From Crocinitomicaceae bacterium (GTDB lineage: Bacteria; Bacteroidota; Bacteroidia; Flavobacteriales_D; Crocinitomicaceae), in assembly GCA_029252405.1 (NCBI GenBank), contig JAQXBM010000098.1, forward strand, positions 1 through 64,000: 64,000 bases of DNA, in the 5' to 3' direction. The notes under the pieces are model-generated. The model saw nothing but the letters and a program-made list of their open reading frames with translations, did not search any database and was not told the DNA's origin. The position numbers and the translations under genes are program-made. Shown here one piece after another: positions 30,271-41,025 of the stretch. The number at the start of each line of letters is the position of its first letter. The stretch's first letter is position 1.

Positions 30271-31938
30271 ATGAAAAAAACACTACTCGTTATCTGCGCG
30301 TTCGCCGTGGCAGGATTTAGCACAATTGCACAAACAACTGATCTTGGTGGTCCAATTTCTTGGAAGTCAAATTTGCGCATGGATGAAATCGATTACGAAA
30401 CAATGCGCGGTTTTGATGAAACTGTTGTTGCTGCCGAAGACGCAATTAACGATGAGAATAAATCGCAACCTTGGAGATTTGGTTACAAATACGACACGGA
30501 TTTCTCGCTTCAAAATTCTGGAACGTGGGAAACCTTGGCTGATGGTAGTAAATTGTGGAGACTTGGAATCACATGTGATGGAGCAATTACAGTAAACTTG
30601 CTATTGGAAGATGTGAACATTCCTGCAGGAGCCTCTTTGTACCTTTTTGATCAAGATAAAACGAACAAGATTGGTGCTTACACTGTTCGAAACAACCGCG
30701 AAGATGGATTGTTGGGAACGGAATTGATCTACGGAGACAACATGATTGTGGAATACCACGAACCTGCAAATGTAGCTGGGGAAGGATCTTTTACGATTTC
30801 AAATGTGATTCACGGATACAGAACGCTAACGCACATTCAAGATGTTTTAACGAAAGCATTGAACAGTTCAGGAAACTGTAACATCGACGTGAACTGTCCA
30901 TTGGGAGATCCGTGGAAAAACCAAAGTAGATCTGTTGCGATGATCGTGGTAGGTGGCAATGGCGCTTGTACTGGTGCACTCATCAACAACACATGTAATG
31001 ATGGAACGCCATATTTCTTAACGGCGAACCACTGTTTGGGTGGAAGTACTGGAAACTGGGCATTCAGATTTAACTGGGAAGTTGCCGAAGGAGATCCAAC
31101 CTTATCATGTGCCACAACAACAAACACTGCGACGTCTTACAATTCTTCATCTGCTCATGATCAAACGGCAAACGGAGCGACGTTATTGGAAAACAGCGGA
31201 AGTTCAGATTTCGCATTGTTGGAAATTGACAACATGGATGTCAACGATGCTATCACTTGGGGTCTTTTCTATGCAGGATGGGATAACACGGATGTTCAAT
31301 CAGCAGTAACAGAAGCAATCGGTATTCACCACCCATCTGGAGATATCAAAAAGATTTGTCGCGCATTCGATACGGGAAATAACATCAGTCACTCAGTTGT
31401 AGGTGGAGCAGATGTTTGGTTCATCGACGCTTGGGATGACGGTGTTACGGAGCCTGGGTCATCAGGGTCACCATTGTTTGATCAAGAAGGAAGAATCATT
31501 GGACAATTGTACGGAGGAGCTGCTGCTTGTAGCGGAACGAATAACAATGGACAGTACGATTTCTACGGTCGTTTTGGAACATCTTGGGATCTTGGAGCAC
31601 AAGAAATTTTATCTCCAGCTTCATGTGGGCCAGAGCAAACAACAGACAACGGATACGATCCAAATCCAGCAACAAACTCGATCGAAGAATTGACTTCGAA
31701 CTTGTTTACAGTGAGTCCAAACCCAAGTGCTGGTTTGTTCACCATTCAATTAGAAGACTTAACAGACGATGCAGTTATCACAGTATTGGACATGACCGGA
31801 CGCGTTCTTTTAACAGAAAACGCAACGTACGGAATCACGTCTTTACTTGATTTAACATCTTCTGCAAATGGAACGTACATCGTTCGATTAACTTCGAGCA
31901 TTGGTTCTGAAATGAAAACAATCGTAATTAATAAATAA
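30271..31938 (+). CDS. T9SS-secreted trypsin-fold serine protease (lysyl endopeptidase-like), copy 1
   Basis: A 555-residue protein: signal peptide (MKKTLLVICAFAVAGFSTIAQ), propeptide-like region to about residue 200, peptidase domain and a C-terminal T9SS domain ('SPNPSAGLFTIQLEDL', 'ITVLDMTGRVLL'). The catalytic triad is visible as H254 ('FLTANHCLGG'), D313 ('SSDFALLEID') and S398 ('EPGSSGSPLF'). Multiple cysteines around the domain ('NIDVNCPLGD', 'GACTGALINNTC') match the lysyl-endopeptidase group of S1 peptidases. It is exported to the cell surface or medium, where it digests proteins. The paralogue follows after 53 bp, with a CCTTGA/TCAAGG hairpin between. Confidence 0.9.
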   Translation: MKKTLLVICAFAVAGFSTIAQTTDLGGPISWKSNLRMDEIDYETMRGFDETVVAAEDAINDENKSQPWRFGYKYDTDFSLQNSGTWETLADGSKLWRLGITCDGAITVNLLLEDVNIPAGASLYLFDQDKTNKIGAYTVRNNREDGLLGTELIYGDNMIVEYHEPANVAGEGSFTISNVIHGYRTLTHIQDVLTKALNSSGNCNIDVNCPLGDPWKNQSRSVAMIVVGGNGACTGALINNTCNDGTPYFLTANHCLGGSTGNWAFRFNWEVAEGDPTLSCATTTNTATSYNSSSAHDQTANGATLLENSGSSDFALLEIDNMDVNDAITWGLFYAGWDNTDVQSAVTEAIGIHHPSGDIKKICRAFDTGNNISHSVVGGADVWFIDAWDDGVTEPGSSGSPLFDQEGRIIGQLYGGAAACSGTNNNGQYDFYGRFGTSWDLGAQEILSPASCGPEQTTDNGYDPNPATNSIEELTSNLFTVSPNPSAGLFTIQLEDLTDDAVITVLDMTGRVLLTENATYGITSLLDLTSSANGTYIVRLTSSIGSEMKTIVINK

Positions 31939-31991
31939 GAACTGCTCGCCTTGAGCATATCAAGGTAGAATTACTCAATTAAACTAGAACT

Positions 31992-34862
31992 ATGAAAAAA
32001 CAACTGCTCTGCTTAGGAGTCTTCGCCCTATTCTCCGTGGCGGCTTCTGCGCAAATTACGGACATGGGTGGACCTGTGTCTGCAAAAGGAAAATCGGTAA
32101 CGGCCGTCAATATTCCAAGGATAACCATGCCTGGATTTGATTTGGCTCAAATTCAAGCCGAAGATGTAATCAACGATGCAGCGAAGGATGCTCCGTGGCG
32201 TTTTGGGTACAAGTATGAAACCAACATCACTGCGAAAAATAGCGGTATTTGGACGGACCTTCCAGGTGGGAATCGTGTTTGGCGAACGGAAATCGTAGCC
32301 AACGGAGCGCTTACAATTAACTTGACGTTAAAGGACATGAACTTCCCAGAGGGAGCGCATCTTTACCTATATGATGCGGCACGAACGCACACGATTGGAG
32401 CATACACGTCTCGAAACAATAACGCAAGCGGTGAACTAGGAACTGATTTGGTTTATGGTGATCATATTGTGGTAGAATACTTCGAACCAGCAGCCGTTCG
32501 CGGTCAAGGTACCTTTACAATTAATGGTGTAACTCACGGATACCGTAGCTTGAATTTGGTTCAAAAGAATCTTGCAAAAGCATTGAACAGTTCAGGAGCC
32601 TGTAACATAGACGCTCGTTGTCCGCTCGATCCTTATGTGGGAGGAATAAGTGCTTGGGATGATCAAATTCGTTCTGTTGCAATGATCGTTGTAAATGGAA
32701 GTGGAATTTGTACTGGAGCATTGATCAACAATTCTTGTAACGATGGAACGCCTTATTTCTTAACGGCGAATCACTGTCTTGGTGGAGGAACATCCAACTG
32801 GTTGTTCAGATTCAACTGGGATGTGCCTGAAGGAAATCCAGGAATGTCTTGTGCTACTACAGCCAATACTCCAACCTCATTCAACAACCCTTCTAATTAC
32901 GATCAAACGACAGTAAATGGAGCGACTGTTTTGGTGAGTGGAGGTCAAGCTGATCACGCACTACTTTTATTAGACAACATGACTGTTGGAGATGCAACTA
33001 GCTGGGGATTATTCTATGCAGGTTGGGACAATTCTGATGTTCAGAATGCGGTAACTGAAGTAACGGGAATTCACCACCCTGCTGGTGACATTAAGAAAAT
33101 TTGCCGTGCAGATGATAATGGAAATGGAATCTTCCATGCTAACAATGCGGGAGCTGCAACATGGGAGATTGATTCGTGGGAAGACGGAGTAACAGAACCA
33201 GGTTCGTCAGGATCTCCATTATTCGATCAAAATGGTCGCATTATCGGACAATTATACGGAGGTGCTGCGGCATGTTCAGGAACAGTAAACAATGGACTGT
33301 TAGATTACTACGGACGTCTTGGAGTCTCTTGGGGACTTGGAGTTGGAACTTACCTTGATCCTGCTTCTTGTGGAGGATCAAATACCGTAAACGACGGATG
33401 GGATCCAAACGCAGCGACAACTAGTGACGATGCAAGCATTCAAGGAATTACTTCTCCGGAGGCACAACTTTGTGGCGCTACTTTCGATCCAGTAGTGACG
33501 TTGAGAAACGCTGGAGCGAATGCATTGACTTCAGTTACGATTCTTTACAATATTGATGGTGGAGCAAACTCAACCTTCAACTGGACAGGAAACTTGGCGT
33601 CAAATGCAAGTGCAGCGGTTACGTTACCAACACAATCAACGACTGCTGGAGCACACATTTTCAACGCAAGTACAAGCAATCCAAACGGAACAACAGATAC
33701 GAACCCAGCTAACGATGCTTCTTTGGCAAACTTCAACGTTACAATTGGAGGTCTAGCGGCAACGTTAACAATCGAAACAGATTGTTGGGGATATGAAACA
33801 TACTGGGAAATCGTAAATGATGGAACAACAACGGTAGTCGCATCAGGTGGAAACACAACAGGTATTCCTCCAGGTGGTGCACAAGGCGCAGCGCCAGGTG
33901 ATCCAGGATCGTATGGTAATGAAATTACCATTAACGAAAACCTATGTTTGGCGGCAGGATGTTACGACTTGATCATGTATGATGATTGGGGTGACGGAAT
34001 GGACGGTACTGCTTCTGGATGTGCGATCGACGGAGATTGGTCAGTGACAGATGGTTCAGGAACTGTGTTAGCTCAAATGACAACAATTTCTTACTCATCT
34101 AATACAAGCAACTTCTGTTTGACTTCACCATGTACATCAACATTCTCGTACACAACGGTTGAGCCGACATGTGCTGAGAATAGTGATGGATCTATTACTG
34201 TTTCGTTTGTGACTGGTAACTCATCTGGTGCGACGTACGATATTGGTAGCGGACCTCAAGGAAGTGGAACGTTTACAGGACTTTCAACTGGAAATTACAC
34301 AGTGAACGTGATAGATGGAAGCGCATGTCTTACATCCGTACCAGCTGTCTTAACTGGACCAGCACCTCTTACTTCATCAACAACTAACGTTACAGATGAA
34401 ACGAACGGTGGCGACGGTGCAATCGATATCACTGTAGCTGGAGGAACTCCAAACTATACTTTCGCTTGGACGGGTCCAAATGGATTTACTGCCTCAACGG
34501 AAGACATTACAAACTTGGAAGATGGAACGTACTCAGTAACTATTACTGATGACAACGGATGTGTAACGACAATTAATGACATCACTGTTGAGCCATCAGC
34601 AGGTCTCGATGAAATCGAAGAGTCGCTATTTGTTGTTTATCCAAATCCAACGAATGGAATAGTGAACATTGTATTGAATAACCCTGCAAATGATGTACGT
34701 TCAATTCAAGTAACAGACGTTACAGGAAGAATTGTTTACGATTCAAATCTTGAAGGGCTTTCTTTCAACATTGATTTATCAACTGCCGCAGATGGAACTT
34801 ATTTCCTGAACGTAGCAACGGATAACAAACGCACAACTCAACCAATCGTATTGAAAAAATAG
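31992..34862 (+). CDS. T9SS-secreted serine protease with CARDB- and SprB-like repeats, copy 2
   Basis: A 956-residue paralogue of the preceding protease. Its peptidase half (about 1-475) keeps H261, D321 and S406. It then gains modules: a CARDB-like domain ('CGATFDPVVTLRNAGANALT', about 490-590), a cysteine-bearing beta domain with 'CYDLIMYDDWGDGMDG' (about 600-715), two SprB-like repeats ('PTCAENSDGSITVSF', 'TNGGDGAIDITVAGGTPNY', about 720-870) and a T9SS type A domain. SprB repeats are known from the flavobacterial gliding adhesin. A surface-bound protease that adheres to its substrate is a fair inference. A strong terminator follows. Confidence 0.9.
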   Translation: MKKQLLCLGVFALFSVAASAQITDMGGPVSAKGKSVTAVNIPRITMPGFDLAQIQAEDVINDAAKDAPWRFGYKYETNITAKNSGIWTDLPGGNRVWRTEIVANGALTINLTLKDMNFPEGAHLYLYDAARTHTIGAYTSRNNNASGELGTDLVYGDHIVVEYFEPAAVRGQGTFTINGVTHGYRSLNLVQKNLAKALNSSGACNIDARCPLDPYVGGISAWDDQIRSVAMIVVNGSGICTGALINNSCNDGTPYFLTANHCLGGGTSNWLFRFNWDVPEGNPGMSCATTANTPTSFNNPSNYDQTTVNGATVLVSGGQADHALLLLDNMTVGDATSWGLFYAGWDNSDVQNAVTEVTGIHHPAGDIKKICRADDNGNGIFHANNAGAATWEIDSWEDGVTEPGSSGSPLFDQNGRIIGQLYGGAAACSGTVNNGLLDYYGRLGVSWGLGVGTYLDPASCGGSNTVNDGWDPNAATTSDDASIQGITSPEAQLCGATFDPVVTLRNAGANALTSVTILYNIDGGANSTFNWTGNLASNASAAVTLPTQSTTAGAHIFNASTSNPNGTTDTNPANDASLANFNVTIGGLAATLTIETDCWGYETYWEIVNDGTTTVVASGGNTTGIPPGGAQGAAPGDPGSYGNEITINENLCLAAGCYDLIMYDDWGDGMDGTASGCAIDGDWSVTDGSGTVLAQMTTISYSSNTSNFCLTSPCTSTFSYTTVEPTCAENSDGSITVSFVTGNSSGATYDIGSGPQGSGTFTGLSTGNYTVNVIDGSACLTSVPAVLTGPAPLTSSTTNVTDETNGGDGAIDITVAGGTPNYTFAWTGPNGFTASTEDITNLEDGTYSVTITDDNGCVTTINDITVEPSAGLDEIEESLFVVYPNPTNGIVNIVLNNPANDVRSIQVTDVTGRIVYDSNLEGLSFNIDLSTAADGTYFLNVATDNKRTTQPIVLKK

Positions 34863-34881
34863 ATCGGTAGAAATAACTGAA

Positions 34882-34928
34882 AACCCTGACATTCGTCCCG
34901 ATAGCTATCGGGATTGTCAGGGTTTTTT
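34882..34928 (+). terminator. Long-stem terminator after the protease pair
   Basis: AACCCTGACA and TGTCAGGGTT form the outer stem around an inner perfect palindrome TCCCGATAGCTATCGGGA, followed by TTTTT. The outer core is shared with the terminator at 50418. Confidence 0.88.
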
Positions 34929-34963
34929 TATTTAGAATCATTTTAAATACCCTGTTTCTGGTA

Positions 34964-35044: not shown

Positions 35045-36184
35045 ATGAAAACATTAATAATCTCTTCTTTATTATTAGTCACAGTAGTGACTATCTCCAG
35101 CTGCAAAAAGGGGTGTACGGACCCAACAGCGATCAATTACGACGAAAAAGCCAAAAAAGACGACAATACCTGTCAGTTCGAAGAAAGCTATACGGTTCCA
35201 ACGACGTATTCTTTCATGGACGCATCAGGAAACTCTACGGTGAGTTATTCTGGACAAACAGAACGCTTGGATCAGTTGAGCGAAATGGTTGTTTTGATGA
35301 AAACAGGAACAAGCACAGTTCTTGACGCTCAAGTTTTGAAAGACATGTTCTCCAATGAAAACGGAAACGGAAATGGGAACTTCTCTTTTACATCAACAAA
35401 GCAATTGAAAAATAAGTGTTTCACAGTTGATCAAGGATTATTTGAAACTTTCATGGATGCCTTGGCAATAGCCAGTGTTGACAATGCTAATACTGCCTCG
35501 GATGGTGTGGCAGGAACATTGTCTTCAGGATCATCGACATATCTATTCGATGAAAATGGAGTAGAGCATGTTCAGGTAATCGAAAAAGGTTTGATGGGTG
35601 CAGTATTCTTGAATCAAGCGTTAAACGTTTATTTCGGAAGTGGTAAAATGGATGTGGATAACACTACAGCGGTTGATGTAGCAGCTGGAGATTATTACAC
35701 AGCAATGGAACATCATTTCGATGAAGCTTTCGGATACTTTGGAGTCGACACGGATTTTCCATCAACTGTTCCGGATCGATTCTGGGGGAAATACTGCAAC
35801 AATCAAGACGCTTTGCTCAATTCAAATGCGGACATGATGAATTGCTTCTTGAGAGGAAGAGCGGCCATTTCAGCAAACGAATTGACGGATCGCGATCAAA
35901 CGATTCTTGCGCTTAGAAAAGAGTGGGAGGAAATTTCAGCCTACCAAGCCATCGACTATATTGACGGTGCAATTGCGAATTTCGGAACAGATGACGCAAA
36001 ATTCTTGCACGAGCTTTCTGAAGCGTATGCATTTGCTTGGAACCTTCGTTACGCACCAGTTGAAACGAGAAGAATGGATCCAACGGAACACGCTGCTTTG
36101 ATGGCGCAATTTCCAACGAACTTTTGGTCAATCACACTTGTCGATTTGAATAACATCAAAAACACAATCAACGCAATCTATTAG
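35045..36184 (+). CDS. DUF4856-like lipoprotein
   Basis: A 379-residue lipoprotein (lipobox near 'VTISSCKKG') with, right after the lipid site, a Cys-bounded 'GCTDPTAINYDEKAKKDDNT' module common in Bacteroidota surface proteins. The main domain begins 'VPTTYSFMDASGNSTVSYSG' and 'QTERLDQLSEMVVLMKTG', as in DUF4856 proteins, which often sit beside imelysin genes. It also contains 'DYYTAMEHHFDEAFGYFGVD', a helix with spaced His/Asp/Glu that might bind metal. First gene of a four-gene unit, 2 bp before the imelysin gene. Probably part of an iron acquisition system at the cell surface. Confidence 0.8.
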   Translation: MKTLIISSLLLVTVVTISSCKKGCTDPTAINYDEKAKKDDNTCQFEESYTVPTTYSFMDASGNSTVSYSGQTERLDQLSEMVVLMKTGTSTVLDAQVLKDMFSNENGNGNGNFSFTSTKQLKNKCFTVDQGLFETFMDALAIASVDNANTASDGVAGTLSSGSSTYLFDENGVEHVQVIEKGLMGAVFLNQALNVYFGSGKMDVDNTTAVDVAAGDYYTAMEHHFDEAFGYFGVDTDFPSTVPDRFWGKYCNNQDALLNSNADMMNCFLRGRAAISANELTDRDQTILALRKEWEEISAYQAIDYIDGAIANFGTDDAKFLHELSEAYAFAWNLRYAPVETRRMDPTEHAALMAQFPTNFWSITLVDLNNIKNTINAIY

Positions 36185-36186
36185 TT

Positions 36187-37257
36187 ATGAATAGAATTCA
36201 ACGAATTTCCATCTTACTTGTCCTCGCAGTGGTTTCTATGGCATCTAGCTGTAATAAACCAGAAGAAACTCCAGAGTTCGACAAAGCAAGCCTACTTGTC
36301 AATTTTTCAGACAACCTGATCGCTCCTTCGCTATCCATGTTAAAAATGGCAGTTGATCAAATGGAGGCGGATTTCGTTGAATTTCAATCGAACCCAACAC
36401 AAGCAAACCTTGACGTTCTCAGAAACTCGTGGAAAGAGGCTTACTTGACATGGCAGACAGTAAAACCGTTTGATTTTGGTCCAATCAGAGATTACGGATT
36501 TAAGGCGGCAACAGGAACTTATCCTTCAGATACAGCGAAAATTGAATCGAATATAGCTGTGGGAAGTTACACCTTAGGTTCCGCTTCAAACATTGATGCA
36601 ATTGGATTACACTCGCTTGATTTTCTATTGCACAGAGCAGACGCCCTATCTTACTTCACAGGGGATGCAAACTACATGACTTATACGAGTGATGTAATTG
36701 CGAAATTGAAATCAGAGACGGATGCAGTAACGAGCGCCTGGGCGGCGTATGCTCCAACCTTCAAAGAATCAACAGGAACGGAAACAACTTCAGGATTTTC
36801 TCAATTGGTGAACGAATTCAACCGCGATTACGAGTTGGTGAAGGTGGCGAAATTGGGAATTCCAATCGGAAAGCAAAGCTTGGGCATTCAGATGCCAGAA
36901 TACCTCGAAGCACGAAACAGTGGAATCGCTTTAGATTTGCTTCGCCAAAATGTGTTGGCACTCGAACAGTACTACAAAGGGAATTCATTTTCTACCGGCC
37001 AATCTGGAGTTGGCTTCGACGATTACCTTCTTCATCTTGAGCGATCAGCGCTTGATGGAACAATTGCGGACAATTTCAGTGCAATTCTCGCGAAAGTTGA
37101 TTCCTTTTCAGGAACGATGGAAAATGAAATGAACTCGAATCCGCAAGGGTTAGACGAATTATATACCCTCATGCAAGGTCAAGTGGTCTCGCTGAAAACG
37201 GATATGACATCTGCTTTCGGCGTGTTGATTACGTATCAAGACAACGACGGTGACTAA
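36187..37257 (+). CDS. Imelysin-family lipoprotein
   Basis: A 356-residue lipoprotein (lipobox 'SMASSC'). It matches the imelysin family (IrpA/EfeO-related helical bundles linked to iron uptake): an N-terminal bundle with 'NSWKEAYLTWQTVKPFDFGP' and the site region 'IGLHSLDFLLHRADAL', corresponding to the family's GxHxxE motif but with Asp in place of Glu. It lies 2 bp after the DUF4856 gene and overlaps the HTTM gene by 8 bp. The D-for-E change is conservative and would still permit metal binding. Confidence 0.88.
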   Translation: MNRIQRISILLVLAVVSMASSCNKPEETPEFDKASLLVNFSDNLIAPSLSMLKMAVDQMEADFVEFQSNPTQANLDVLRNSWKEAYLTWQTVKPFDFGPIRDYGFKAATGTYPSDTAKIESNIAVGSYTLGSASNIDAIGLHSLDFLLHRADALSYFTGDANYMTYTSDVIAKLKSETDAVTSAWAAYAPTFKESTGTETTSGFSQLVNEFNRDYELVKVAKLGIPIGKQSLGIQMPEYLEARNSGIALDLLRQNVLALEQYYKGNSFSTGQSGVGFDDYLLHLERSALDGTIADNFSAILAKVDSFSGTMENEMNSNPQGLDELYTLMQGQVVSLKTDMTSAFGVLITYQDNDGD

Positions 37258-38614
37258 ATCGAGATTCCAAACATATTTTGATCCTTTCAAGGAAGTTTCT
37301 AATGCTCCGTTAATTGTATTCCGTATAATTTTTGGAGCATTAATGCTTTTCGGGATTTCTCGTTTTCTCATCAACGGTTGGGTCGAGCAGCTCTACATTG
37401 AACCAACGCATTATTTCACATATCTAGGATTTGATTGGGTTCGGCCATTAGATGGAAATTTGATGTACGCCCCTTTTATTTTGATGATCATTGCATCGAT
37501 TTCGATCATGCTTGGGATGTTTTACCGCTGGGGAACGGTCATTTTCTTTATCTGCTTTACCTACATTGAGCTGCTCGACAAATCCAATTACTTAAATCAC
37601 TATTACTTTGTAAGCCTCGTAAGTTTTTTAATGATTTGGGTTCCAGCAAATGCTCGGTTTTCAATAGATGTACTGCTCATGCCCTCCATCAAACGCTCTA
37701 CGATGAGGCAATGGCATTCAGGGATTATTAAGTTCCAATTGTCGGTTGTTTACATTTTCGCAGGTATTGCCAAAGTCAATTCTGATTGGTTATTCGAAGC
37801 GCAACCCCTCAAAACATGGCTTCAAGCACATCATCAAATTCCAGTAGTTGGAGGATACCTTCAGCAAGATTGGGCGGCGTATCTCTTCAGTTGGTCAGGC
37901 TGTATTTACGATTTGTTCATTGTGTTTTTCCTTTTGAGTGCACGTTTTCGTCCTTTTGCCTACTTCTTCGTGGTGTTTTTCCATCTCGTAACGTGGTATT
38001 TATTCCCAATTGGCGTGTTCCCTTGGGTGATGATTTTCTCAACATTGATTTTCTTTTCAGACCATTTTCACGAAGGAATCCTCAATCGACTGGGAGCTGT
38101 TAACTCAAGAAAAAAGAAGACACCGCTTCCTAGACCGCGAAAGTTTGTGCGAACAGCCCTACTAGTCTACGTTGTGATTCAATTGCTAGTTCCCATGCGC
38201 TTTCTGCTATACAAAGGCGATTTATTTTGGAATGAAGAAGGATTCCAATTTTCGTGGCGCGTGATGCTCATGCACAAGGAAGGACATGCAACATTTTATC
38301 TGGTAGACAAAAAAACGGGGCGTGAATCAGAAATTCAAAACTCCGATTTTCTTACACCTACACAGGAAGACCAGATGGCAACTCAACCCGATATGATTTT
38401 GCAATACGCCGACATATTGAGGGAGCATTATGATGGGCAAATCCTGGAATTCGGAGATTACAAATTCCCGATTGACGACCCTGAGATTCGTGCTGAAATT
38501 TACGTGAGTTTGAATGGAAGACCCTCACAATTGTTTGTTGACAAGAAGCACGATTTAACAAAATTACCCTACAACTTGGCTCACCGAGAATGGATAGAGA
38601 CACTTAAAGAATGA
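37250..38614 (+). CDS. Vitamin K-dependent gamma-carboxylase-like HTTM membrane protein
   Basis: A 454-residue integral membrane protein starting at GTG 37250 inside the end of the imelysin gene. N-terminal HTTM region: 'PLIVFRIIFGALMLFGISRF', 'YLNHYYFVSLVSFLMIWVPA' and 'FQLSVVYIFAGIAKVNSDW'. The last aligns by eye with human GGCX around its active-site Lys218 (AGVKKLDADW), so K175 here corresponds to the catalytic base. A C-terminal soluble domain (about 305-454) has 'FSWRVMLMHKEGHATFYLVD', also as in GGCX. Family members carboxylate Glu or oxidise vitamin K hydroquinone; many bacterial ones are uncharacterised. It overlaps the TonB receptor gene by 4 bp. Confidence 0.85.
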   Translation: MTKSRFQTYFDPFKEVSNAPLIVFRIIFGALMLFGISRFLINGWVEQLYIEPTHYFTYLGFDWVRPLDGNLMYAPFILMIIASISIMLGMFYRWGTVIFFICFTYIELLDKSNYLNHYYFVSLVSFLMIWVPANARFSIDVLLMPSIKRSTMRQWHSGIIKFQLSVVYIFAGIAKVNSDWLFEAQPLKTWLQAHHQIPVVGGYLQQDWAAYLFSWSGCIYDLFIVFFLLSARFRPFAYFFVVFFHLVTWYLFPIGVFPWVMIFSTLIFFSDHFHEGILNRLGAVNSRKKKTPLPRPRKFVRTALLVYVVIQLLVPMRFLLYKGDLFWNEEGFQFSWRVMLMHKEGHATFYLVDKKTGRESEIQNSDFLTPTQEDQMATQPDMILQYADILREHYDGQILEFGDYKFPIDDPEIRAEIYVSLNGRPSQLFVDKKHDLTKLPYNLAHREWIETLKE

Positions 38615-41025
38615 AGTTTTTAACCACTATATTGTTTTTGTTCATTTTGATGACATCCCTCGCGCAAGTGAAAGGTGTGGTGCTGGATTCTGAAAAAATT
38701 GGAATTCCAGGTGTGAAGCTGAAAAACCCAAGATCGGGAGAGATGGCGTTAACATCAGACGACGGGACATTCCAAATTGAGGCGAGTCATTTCGACACAC
38801 TGATTTTTTCAGCTCTCGGTTTTGATACGCTCATTTATACGCTTTCGCAATACAACATGACTCAGACCTTTCAGATCTCGATGACTGAAAGTTACCAAGA
38901 CGTAGATGGAGCAAATGTCATTCGTAAACACATGGAAGGTTTTGACGTAGGTTTTCTCCCTCCGGTTCGTGGAGTTCAAATTTACACTGGAACAAACGCT
39001 GTAATTGAACTTTCTGAATTAAGTGGAGCGAAATCAGCAGCGAATCCAAGGGAGATTTTTGCAAAAGTACCTGGATTGAATATTTGGGAAAGTGACGGTG
39101 CGGGAATTCAAGTTGGAATCGGAGGGCGAGGATTGAGTCCGAACAGAACGGCGAATTTCAACACCCGCCAAAACGGTTACGACATCAGTGCAGATGCGCT
39201 CGGCTACCCTGAAAGTTATTACACGCCACCTTTCGAAGCATTGAAAGCAATTGAAATTATACGTGGATCAGCATCACTTCAGTTTGGTTCTCAATTTGGC
39301 GGATTGTTGAATTTCATCATCAAAGACGCACCAACCAATACCCCTTTCGAGTTTACGTCCCGGACGACGAGCGGAATGTATGGCTACCTCGGAACATTCA
39401 ACCGCATTGCAGGATCGAAAAACCGCGTTTTCTATCAGGCATACCATCAATACAAACGTGGAGATGGTTACCGAGAGAACTCGAACTTTGCGCAGCATCA
39501 GGCATTCGCCCAAGTTGGATATTACCTCACCGACAACATCAAACTTCGCTTAGAATACACGCACATGAATTACTTGGCGAAGCAAGCGGGAGGTTTGTCC
39601 GATGTGCAGTTTGAGGAAAATCCACGTCAGAGTTTGCGTGACAGAAATTGGTTCAAGGTAAACTGGAACATGTTAGCGCTTCACTACGATCATGAAATTT
39701 CGAAGAAATCGCACTTCAACATTCGAGCGTTTGGAATGGCGTCGAGCCGTAAAACCTTGGGGTTTTTGGGTAAAATCACCCAACAAGATCCTGGAGGTGC
39801 ACGTGAAATGTTAGCAGGAGATTTCCGAAATGCAGGAATTGAAGCACGATTCCTACAGCGCTACGATTTCAATAAGAAGGAGGAAGTATCGAAATTTAGA
39901 GGAGCTTTCCTCGTTGGAGCTCGCTATTATCGAGGAACTACAACAGCCGATCAAGGCACTGCAACGGATGGGAGTGATGCCAATTTTACGTATCAAAACC
40001 CGGAAGATTTGGAGGGTTCATCGTTTACATATCCATCTGAAAATACCGCAGGATTTGCGGAGAACATCTTGTTTATTGGCGATCGAACAACGGTCAATTT
40101 CGGACTGCGAATGGAATCGATTCAAAGTGGATCGGGCGGATATTACAAGCGTTATTCGATTCATCCCGTGAACCTAGACACGCTCGCCGTTTACACGATT
40201 GAAGACAATAATAGTGTAAATCGATTTGTACCGTTATTTGGAGCTGGAACATCATTTAGAACGAGCAAACGATCGAAAGTTTACGCAAATTTCACACAGA
40301 ATTACCGAGCGATCAATTTCACGGATATTCGAATTTCCAACCCAAACATCGTCATTGATAGTTTGATCAAAGATGAATACGGCTACACTGCAGAACTTGG
40401 TTTTCGTGGTATTCAAAGTGATTTTTGGATTTATGATGTTGCGGCATTCTACGTTTTCTATGGAGATAAAATTGGATTGGCGCCGAAAGCAGGAACAACA
40501 TTCAAAGAGCGAACGAATATTGGTAACGCTAGAAATATGGGAGTGGAGGTTTTCTCCGAGTTTGATTTCATCAAAGCGTTCAGGGATTCGGCGAAGCACT
40601 CGCTGTCACTTTTTGTAAACGCGGCTTACATAGATGCAAGATACATTAGATCAAAGGAGCCGAATTTTGTCGGGAAGAAAGTAGAATACGTCAGTCCGTT
40701 TATCCTCAAATCGGGAGTTAAGTACAAGTACAAAGGATGGAGTTTTCAAGTTCAAGGGTCGTACAATTCGGAGCAATTTTCAGACGCATCCAATTCAGTG
40801 CTCCCTTCCGGTGATGCTGTAATTGGTTCGATTCCATCGTATCTTGTGTTCGATTTCTCGGCTAGATATTCCTTTACGAAATACATTCAGCTCGAAGGAG
40901 GAGTGAATAACTTCACAAATCAAAAATATTATACACGACGTGCTGCGGCATATCCTGGGCCTGGAATTCTTCCTTCAGATGGAATCAACGCCTACTTGAC
41001 GCTTCAATTCAAGTTTGCTAAGTAG
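38611..41025 (+). CDS. TonB-dependent outer-membrane receptor, FecA/iron type
   Basis: An 804-residue receptor: signal peptide (MKFLTTILFLFILMTSLA), a carboxypeptidase-regulatory-like domain (about 20-95, 'VKGVVLDSEKIGIPGVKLK'), plug ('NPREIFAKVPGLNIWESDGA', 'LKAIEIIRGSASLQFGSQFG') and a 22-strand barrel ending 'GINAYLTLQFKFAK'. Residues such as 'GIGGRGLSPNRTANFNTRQN' resemble the FecA/ferric citrate group. The ATG overlaps the HTTM stop. It is the outer-membrane uptake step of this operon. The exact ferric ligand is not deducible. Confidence 0.9.
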   Translation: MKFLTTILFLFILMTSLAQVKGVVLDSEKIGIPGVKLKNPRSGEMALTSDDGTFQIEASHFDTLIFSALGFDTLIYTLSQYNMTQTFQISMTESYQDVDGANVIRKHMEGFDVGFLPPVRGVQIYTGTNAVIELSELSGAKSAANPREIFAKVPGLNIWESDGAGIQVGIGGRGLSPNRTANFNTRQNGYDISADALGYPESYYTPPFEALKAIEIIRGSASLQFGSQFGGLLNFIIKDAPTNTPFEFTSRTTSGMYGYLGTFNRIAGSKNRVFYQAYHQYKRGDGYRENSNFAQHQAFAQVGYYLTDNIKLRLEYTHMNYLAKQAGGLSDVQFEENPRQSLRDRNWFKVNWNMLALHYDHEISKKSHFNIRAFGMASSRKTLGFLGKITQQDPGGAREMLAGDFRNAGIEARFLQRYDFNKKEEVSKFRGAFLVGARYYRGTTTADQGTATDGSDANFTYQNPEDLEGSSFTYPSENTAGFAENILFIGDRTTVNFGLRMESIQSGSGGYYKRYSIHPVNLDTLAVYTIEDNNSVNRFVPLFGAGTSFRTSKRSKVYANFTQNYRAINFTDIRISNPNIVIDSLIKDEYGYTAELGFRGIQSDFWIYDVAAFYVFYGDKIGLAPKAGTTFKERTNIGNARNMGVEVFSEFDFIKAFRDSAKHSLSLFVNAAYIDARYIRSKEPNFVGKKVEYVSPFILKSGVKYKYKGWSFQVQGSYNSEQFSDASNSVLPSGDAVIGSIPSYLVFDFSARYSFTKYIQLEGGVNNFTNQKYYTRRAAAYPGPGILPSDGINAYLTLQFKFAK

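Follow-up and report, generated by a model that had tools for sequence, protein, structure and literature searches.

Protein gamma-carboxylation is known from animals, and GGCX chemistry requires naphthoquinol, O2 and CO2 on the lumenal or periplasmic side. The 64,000-nucleotide stretch of DNA analysed here (the window) comes from a Flavobacteriales genome whose closest relatives are Fluviicola/Crocinitomicaceae, and it encodes a GGCX-like protein, VKGC-A, within a probable iron-uptake operon. What such an enzyme could do there, directly behind the gene for an imelysin, a type of protein for which to our knowledge no biochemical function is agreed, is the question raised by this locus. The operon and the sites discussed below are the following.

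34930..34948, + strand: Fur box ATTTAGAATCATTTTAAAT, about 100 bp upstream of the DUF4856 gene, two mismatches to the Riemerella consensus
35045..36184, + strand: DUF4856 lipoprotein with a MEHHxDEAFGY motif (Pfam PF16148, E 6e-48)
36187..37257, + strand: imelysin (Peptidase_M75) lipoprotein of the IPPA/PA4372-like type (Pfam PF09375, E 1e-24)
37240..37254, + strand: carboxy-terminal imelysin peptide Asp-Asn-Asp-Gly-Asp (DGD-COOH in 79/79 loci)
37250..38614, + strand: VKGC-A, GGCX-family membrane enzyme (GTG start, 454 aa)
37286..38059, + strand: HTTM membrane domain of VKGC-A
37595..37600, + strand: codons of Asn116-His117, equivalent to human N159-H160 (Glu pocket / quinone contact; conserved 82/82)
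37772..37774, + strand: codon of Lys175, equivalent to the human catalytic base K218 (conserved 82/82)
38138..38608, + strand: VKGC lumenal (periplasm-facing) domain of VKGC-A (PF22777)
38611..41025, + strand: TonB-dependent receptor, siderophore/ferric-dicitrate-receptor-like (PF00593, PF07715)

Two Pfam domains, HTTM (PF05090, 266 bits) and VKGC_lumenal_dom (PF22777, 170 bits), account for VKGC-A, and its sequence matches human GGCX chains in the PDB along almost all of its length (E 7e-38). The AlphaFold (AF2) model, with a pLDDT of 92, retrieved 16 GGCX chains from the PDB at E <=2e-14 and TM scores up to 0.84 (9wfc_A); beyond GGCX this fold search returned nothing below E 0.2, the next unrelated hit having E 0.25. 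A chance relationship is excluded, and by its domains, predicted fold and catalytic base VKGC-A is a member of the GGCX family. The homology proposed for the HTTM protein in the sequence-only reading is therefore borne out by domains, sequence match and fold, as is the aligned block claimed for the soluble domain, with 'SWRVML' opposite human SWDMM (residues 398-402).

The numbering of human residues was reconstructed from the PDB alignment and is consistent with the residues named in PMC12589487 that this alignment covers. The lysine singled out as catalytic, K175 in window numbering, stands opposite human K218, with A174 opposite K217, and neither the sequence nor the fold alignment places it away from the active site. 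K218, N159, H160, A214, F286, H287, F299 and M402 are conserved in 82/82 relatives and W223 in 81/82, and F294, V210 and G259 are near-invariant. In the human enzyme the K218A substitution abolishes catalysis with binding retained; K217 links the membrane and lumenal parts, and catalysis survives its loss (PMC12589487). The quinone pocket (V210, A214, W223, G259, F286, F294, F299) is kept in VKGC-A, with M401V and N290T as altered positions. All or nearly all of the 82 relatives carry Leu at N158, Ala or Ser at K217, Val at M401 and Thr at N290. On the Glu side Y395 is replaced by or kept as F, Y or M, and R436 by Q or M; R436 and N158 are the contacts to the Gla backbone. The substrate Glu in the GGCX structure is held by N159, H160 and Y395 (PMC12589487), but the conservation of H160 is no proof of a Glu substrate, since this residue touches the quinone ring too. 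The oxygenation machinery of VKGC-A looks intact, and its substrate side looks remodelled.

The structures of human GGCX (9wfc, 9bvq, 9l6s and others; cryo-EM) share with VKGC-A the fold along its entire length, K218, N159/H160, the pocket residues F286, F294, F299, W223, A214 and G259, and the Q446/D442 interface. The human protein has 758 aa and VKGC-A 454; both the VKGC-A alignment and the protein itself stop near human residue 504, so that the region of R513, I532, G558 and T591 is absent, and with it the arch and the rest of a complete two-lobed propeptide-binding domain. K217A, N158L, M401V and the lack of the C99-C450 disulphide are further differences, and human GGCX has propeptide/Gla substrates, whereas none is known for VKGC-A. 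VKGC-A cannot be equated with human GGCX, since it has an incomplete propeptide-binding region and a partly altered Glu pocket. The missing part, as read from the alignment, separates VKGC-A from the human-type enzyme and not from the wider family.

A second subfamily in Bacteroidota, VKGC-B (~440 aa; loci L094-L100, L102, L104-L106, L165), has the same domains and the same K218, N159 and H160 as VKGC-A, but retains M401 and, in most members, N158, so that its active site is nearer to human GGCX. In the flavobacteria examined VKGC-B genes lie mostly directly behind ribF, imelysin is absent, and a Fur box (<=3 mismatches) was found at 0/11 of them. The Leptospira VKD carboxylase is reportedly a bacterial GGCX homologue acquired by transfer, and we know of no link between it and an imelysin operon; the Leptospira homologue is mentioned in PMC4555120. 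A further GGCX-like protein with K218/N159/H160 is encoded beside a DUF393 gene on plasmid p1 of Paracoccus albus (L167, 6944-8335). Ubiquinone is used by Paracoccus and by alphaproteobacteria generally, and this case is a hint that the quinone is perhaps not menaquinone in every family member. The host genome itself encodes a second HTTM protein of 530 aa that lacks the lumenal domain (contig C34, L002 1216-2805); its alignment suggests that Lys is retained at the position of K218, and His at 160.

The VKGC-A gene is tightly packed between its two neighbours, to which the sequence-only reading described it as translationally coupled: its start is overlapped by 8 bp by the end of the imelysin gene (stop TAA 37255-37257), and its stop overlaps the ATG of the TonB-receptor gene. 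The imelysin profile matches PDB entries 3n8u, 3pf0 and 4ecg, the GLHSLD motif in the window is a variant of GxHxxE, and the lipobox cysteine, Cys22, is conserved in 76/76 sequences; the corresponding Cys20 of the DUF4856 protein is conserved in 69/72. The best NCBIfam resemblances of the receptor are to TonB-siderophor and FecA, both below cut-offs. Across 80 loci, judged wherever the contig was long enough, the genes stand, with few exceptions, in the order DUF4856 - imelysin - VKGC - TonB receptor, which supports the linkage of VKGC to imelysin and DUF4856, and the receptor adjoins VKGC in nearly all of them. Carriers include Crocinitomicaceae, Brumimicrobium, Flammeovirga, Algoriphagus, Mucilaginibacter, Fodinibius and Roseithermus.

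An evenly drawn sample of 248 Bacteroidota genomes gave 65 matches to the VKGC lumenal domain; 47 lie within 3 kb of an imelysin, and most of the others belong to VKGC-B. The 49 genomes of this sample that carry VKGC-A are also the 49 that carry DGD-tailed imelysins, and the two genes are linked in 47; the 49 include G108, where both genes are kept far apart, and G136, where the imelysin is cut by the contig end and its tail is not visible. No VKGC was found in the eight genomes with IrpA-type imelysins only. It is strongly supported that the IPPA-type imelysin and the TonB receptor are the constant partners of VKGC-A. A small number of operons gain or swap in a di-haem gene and an IrpA-type imelysin, and VKGC then still directly follows the second imelysin; in hybrid operons a DHOR-like di-haem gene and VKGC flank one DGD-tailed imelysin (L012, L049, L054, Persicobacter plasmid L168). 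The idea that VKGC replaces the di-haem enzyme was rejected, as both are present in these hybrids.

The Fur box follows an apparent terminator hairpin of the preceding gene (about 34880-34929, by eye) and is the sole place in the window with <=3 mismatches to the Riemerella Fur box, the chance expectation being 0.06. With the same limit on mismatches and a distance of up to 400 bp, a Fur box was found in 56/72 related operons vs 2/155 control ORFs of the same loci, and it is retained at the orphan VKGC-A gene of G108 (L103). In Riemerella anatipestifer, genes of the same types (RAYM_09779-09794, coding for TonB receptor, VKGC, imelysin and a hypothetical protein) rise by 2.1-3.1 log2 units at low iron; the Fur effect was measured by RNA-seq, and the delta-fur mutant is still iron-responsive (PMC5609570). 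Given the Fur box statistics and these data, the iron context is real, and the earlier description of an iron-uptake operon agrees with the Fur box, the Riemerella regulon and the TonB receptor. There is strong support for VKGC-A being produced when iron is short, from an operon under Fur control, the iron response being known from Riemerella. The claim of novelty for a bacterial operon stands in part: the Riemerella VKGC gene was already published as a table entry among Fur-regulated genes, and its chemistry was left uncommented there (PMC5609570). The Fur-iron-imelysin setting of VKGC is conserved across Bacteroidota, and was not found discussed as such in the literature searched. The bacterial GGCX homologue now has a defined setting, comprising one regulon (Fur), a constant DGD-tailed imelysin and one receptor.

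Genes for menA and haem-copper oxidases are present in the host genome; VKOR, for recycling of quinone epoxide, was not found in it. The genome G230 lacks a haem-copper oxidase, and in the order centred on it only one genome of 149 has VKGC, one that does encode such an oxidase; this rarity fits an O2-using enzyme, with phylogeny as a confounder. Counting haem-copper oxidases across the whole sample proved of little use as an O2 test, 237/248 genomes being positive.

We tentatively favour, at clearly less than an even chance, the reading that VKGC-A is a carboxylase-type enzyme which is driven by menaquinol and O2 and acts on a periplasmic iron-uptake partner, most likely the adjacent imelysin, at an unspecified residue. 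The enzyme would lie in the inner membrane and use O2 to oxygenate menaquinol at Lys175, at the periplasmic face. The strong base arising from quinol oxygenation would deprotonate the side chain of an acidic residue in a periplasmic lipoprotein; the candidate substrates are the exported lipoproteins of the same operon, the imelysin being the likeliest. Addition of CO2 would then give a metal-binding dicarboxylate for iron capture behind the TonB receptor. The narrower proposal that glutamates of the operon partners are gamma-carboxylated lacks clear support: these proteins contain no Gla-like Glu cluster (on average at most about 5 Glu in 40 residues) and no conserved glutamate-rich region, the part of human GGCX beyond residue ~504 is missing from VKGC-A, and several Gla-holding residues are altered. 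Only two Glu are conserved in the imelysin, both also in other imelysin types. It is because no Gla-like cluster was found that modification of the imelysin is favoured here without naming a residue. The lack of VKOR, the altered substrate-side residues and the DGD tail outside VKGC loci count against the carboxylase reading.

Imelysins preceding VKGC end in Asp-x-Asp-Gly-Asp in 79/79 loci, mostly as ITYQDNDGD, and the VKGC-linked imelysins of the sampled genomes end in Asp-Gly-Asp in 47/47, the upstream Asp sometimes being Ser. Synonymous codons are used freely at the invariant positions, which places the constraint at the protein level. In the model of the window's imelysin the final six residues have low pLDDT, and in the crystal of Psychrobacter 3pf0, whose sequence ends in NSTDGD, the final six are disordered. 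Such an invariant and disordered C-terminal peptide points to docking or modification. IrpA-type imelysins lack the tail (0/16), and it is also found on imelysins of DHOR operons with no adjacent VKGC (L144, L146, L147), from Bacteroidota genomes that have VKGC-A elsewhere; because of the latter the tail is a feature of IPPA-type imelysins and not of VKGC pairing alone. The notion that it marks a VKGC substrate is weakened by its occurrence in DHOR operons and in 3pf0. That the DxDGD tail is itself the site of VKGC-A action or docking, with a carboxyl group added to aspartate or a nearby residue to give an iron-binding tail, we regard as decidedly unlikely; if true, it would mean bacterial quinol-driven protein carboxylation for iron uptake, on aspartate rather than glutamate.

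The main and serious rival to the carboxylase reading, though itself somewhat unlikely, is that VKGC-A is a menaquinol oxygenase or epoxidase without protein carboxylation, performing a redox reaction beside the imelysin, e.g., to hold iron in the appropriate oxidation state. The Leptospira GGCX homologue is reported to epoxidise vitamin K with carboxylation altered. The catalytic base and quinone pocket of VKGC-A are kept and parts of its Glu pocket drift, and the missing VKOR is in line with this alternative. Other imelysins are accompanied in a similar way by DyP (EfeB) or di-haem DHOR enzymes, and a peroxidase-type enzyme is the partner of almost every imelysin (PMC3143127). In particular, operons of the PA4370-PA4373 type are Fur-linked and contain the same DGD-tailed imelysin, but have a DHOR di-haem enzyme and an IrpA-type imelysin in place of DUF4856 and VKGC (PMC3143127). 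The hybrid operons, where VKGC and DHOR-like genes occur together, argue against a simple replacement, and the invariance of N159 and H160 also speaks against an oxygenase alone.

It is unlikely that VKGC-A modifies or carboxylates a small molecule or iron ligand delivered by the TonB receptor instead of a protein. The constancy of the receptor, with its resemblance to siderophore and ferric-dicitrate receptors, and the absence of the C-terminal part that contributes to propeptide gripping in human GGCX would fit this explanation, but biosynthesis genes are absent from the operon and the imelysin is retained even in G108, where it is unlinked. That VKGC-A is a membrane partner of the imelysin/TonB system which is non-catalytic or acts differently, its active site being a relic, is very improbable, as the full conservation of the catalytic lysine and pocket in proteins down to ~45% identity argues for active chemistry.

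The conserved MEHHxDEAFGY motif of the DUF4856 protein (window 35681-35755, residues 213-237) contains HxxE, recalling GxHxxE of imelysins; a profile comparison of the two families is weak (probability 78, 14% identity), and sequence searches found no relatives of DUF4856 with a solved structure. In L160, from G230, where no haem-copper oxidase was found, DUF4856 adjoins genes for Peptidase_Mx1, DUF4302 and an fn3 protein, which replace imelysin and VKGC. Directly 5' of the operon in the window lie two tandem genes for secreted trypsin-like proteases with type IX secretion tails (Por_Secre_tail; 30271-34862).
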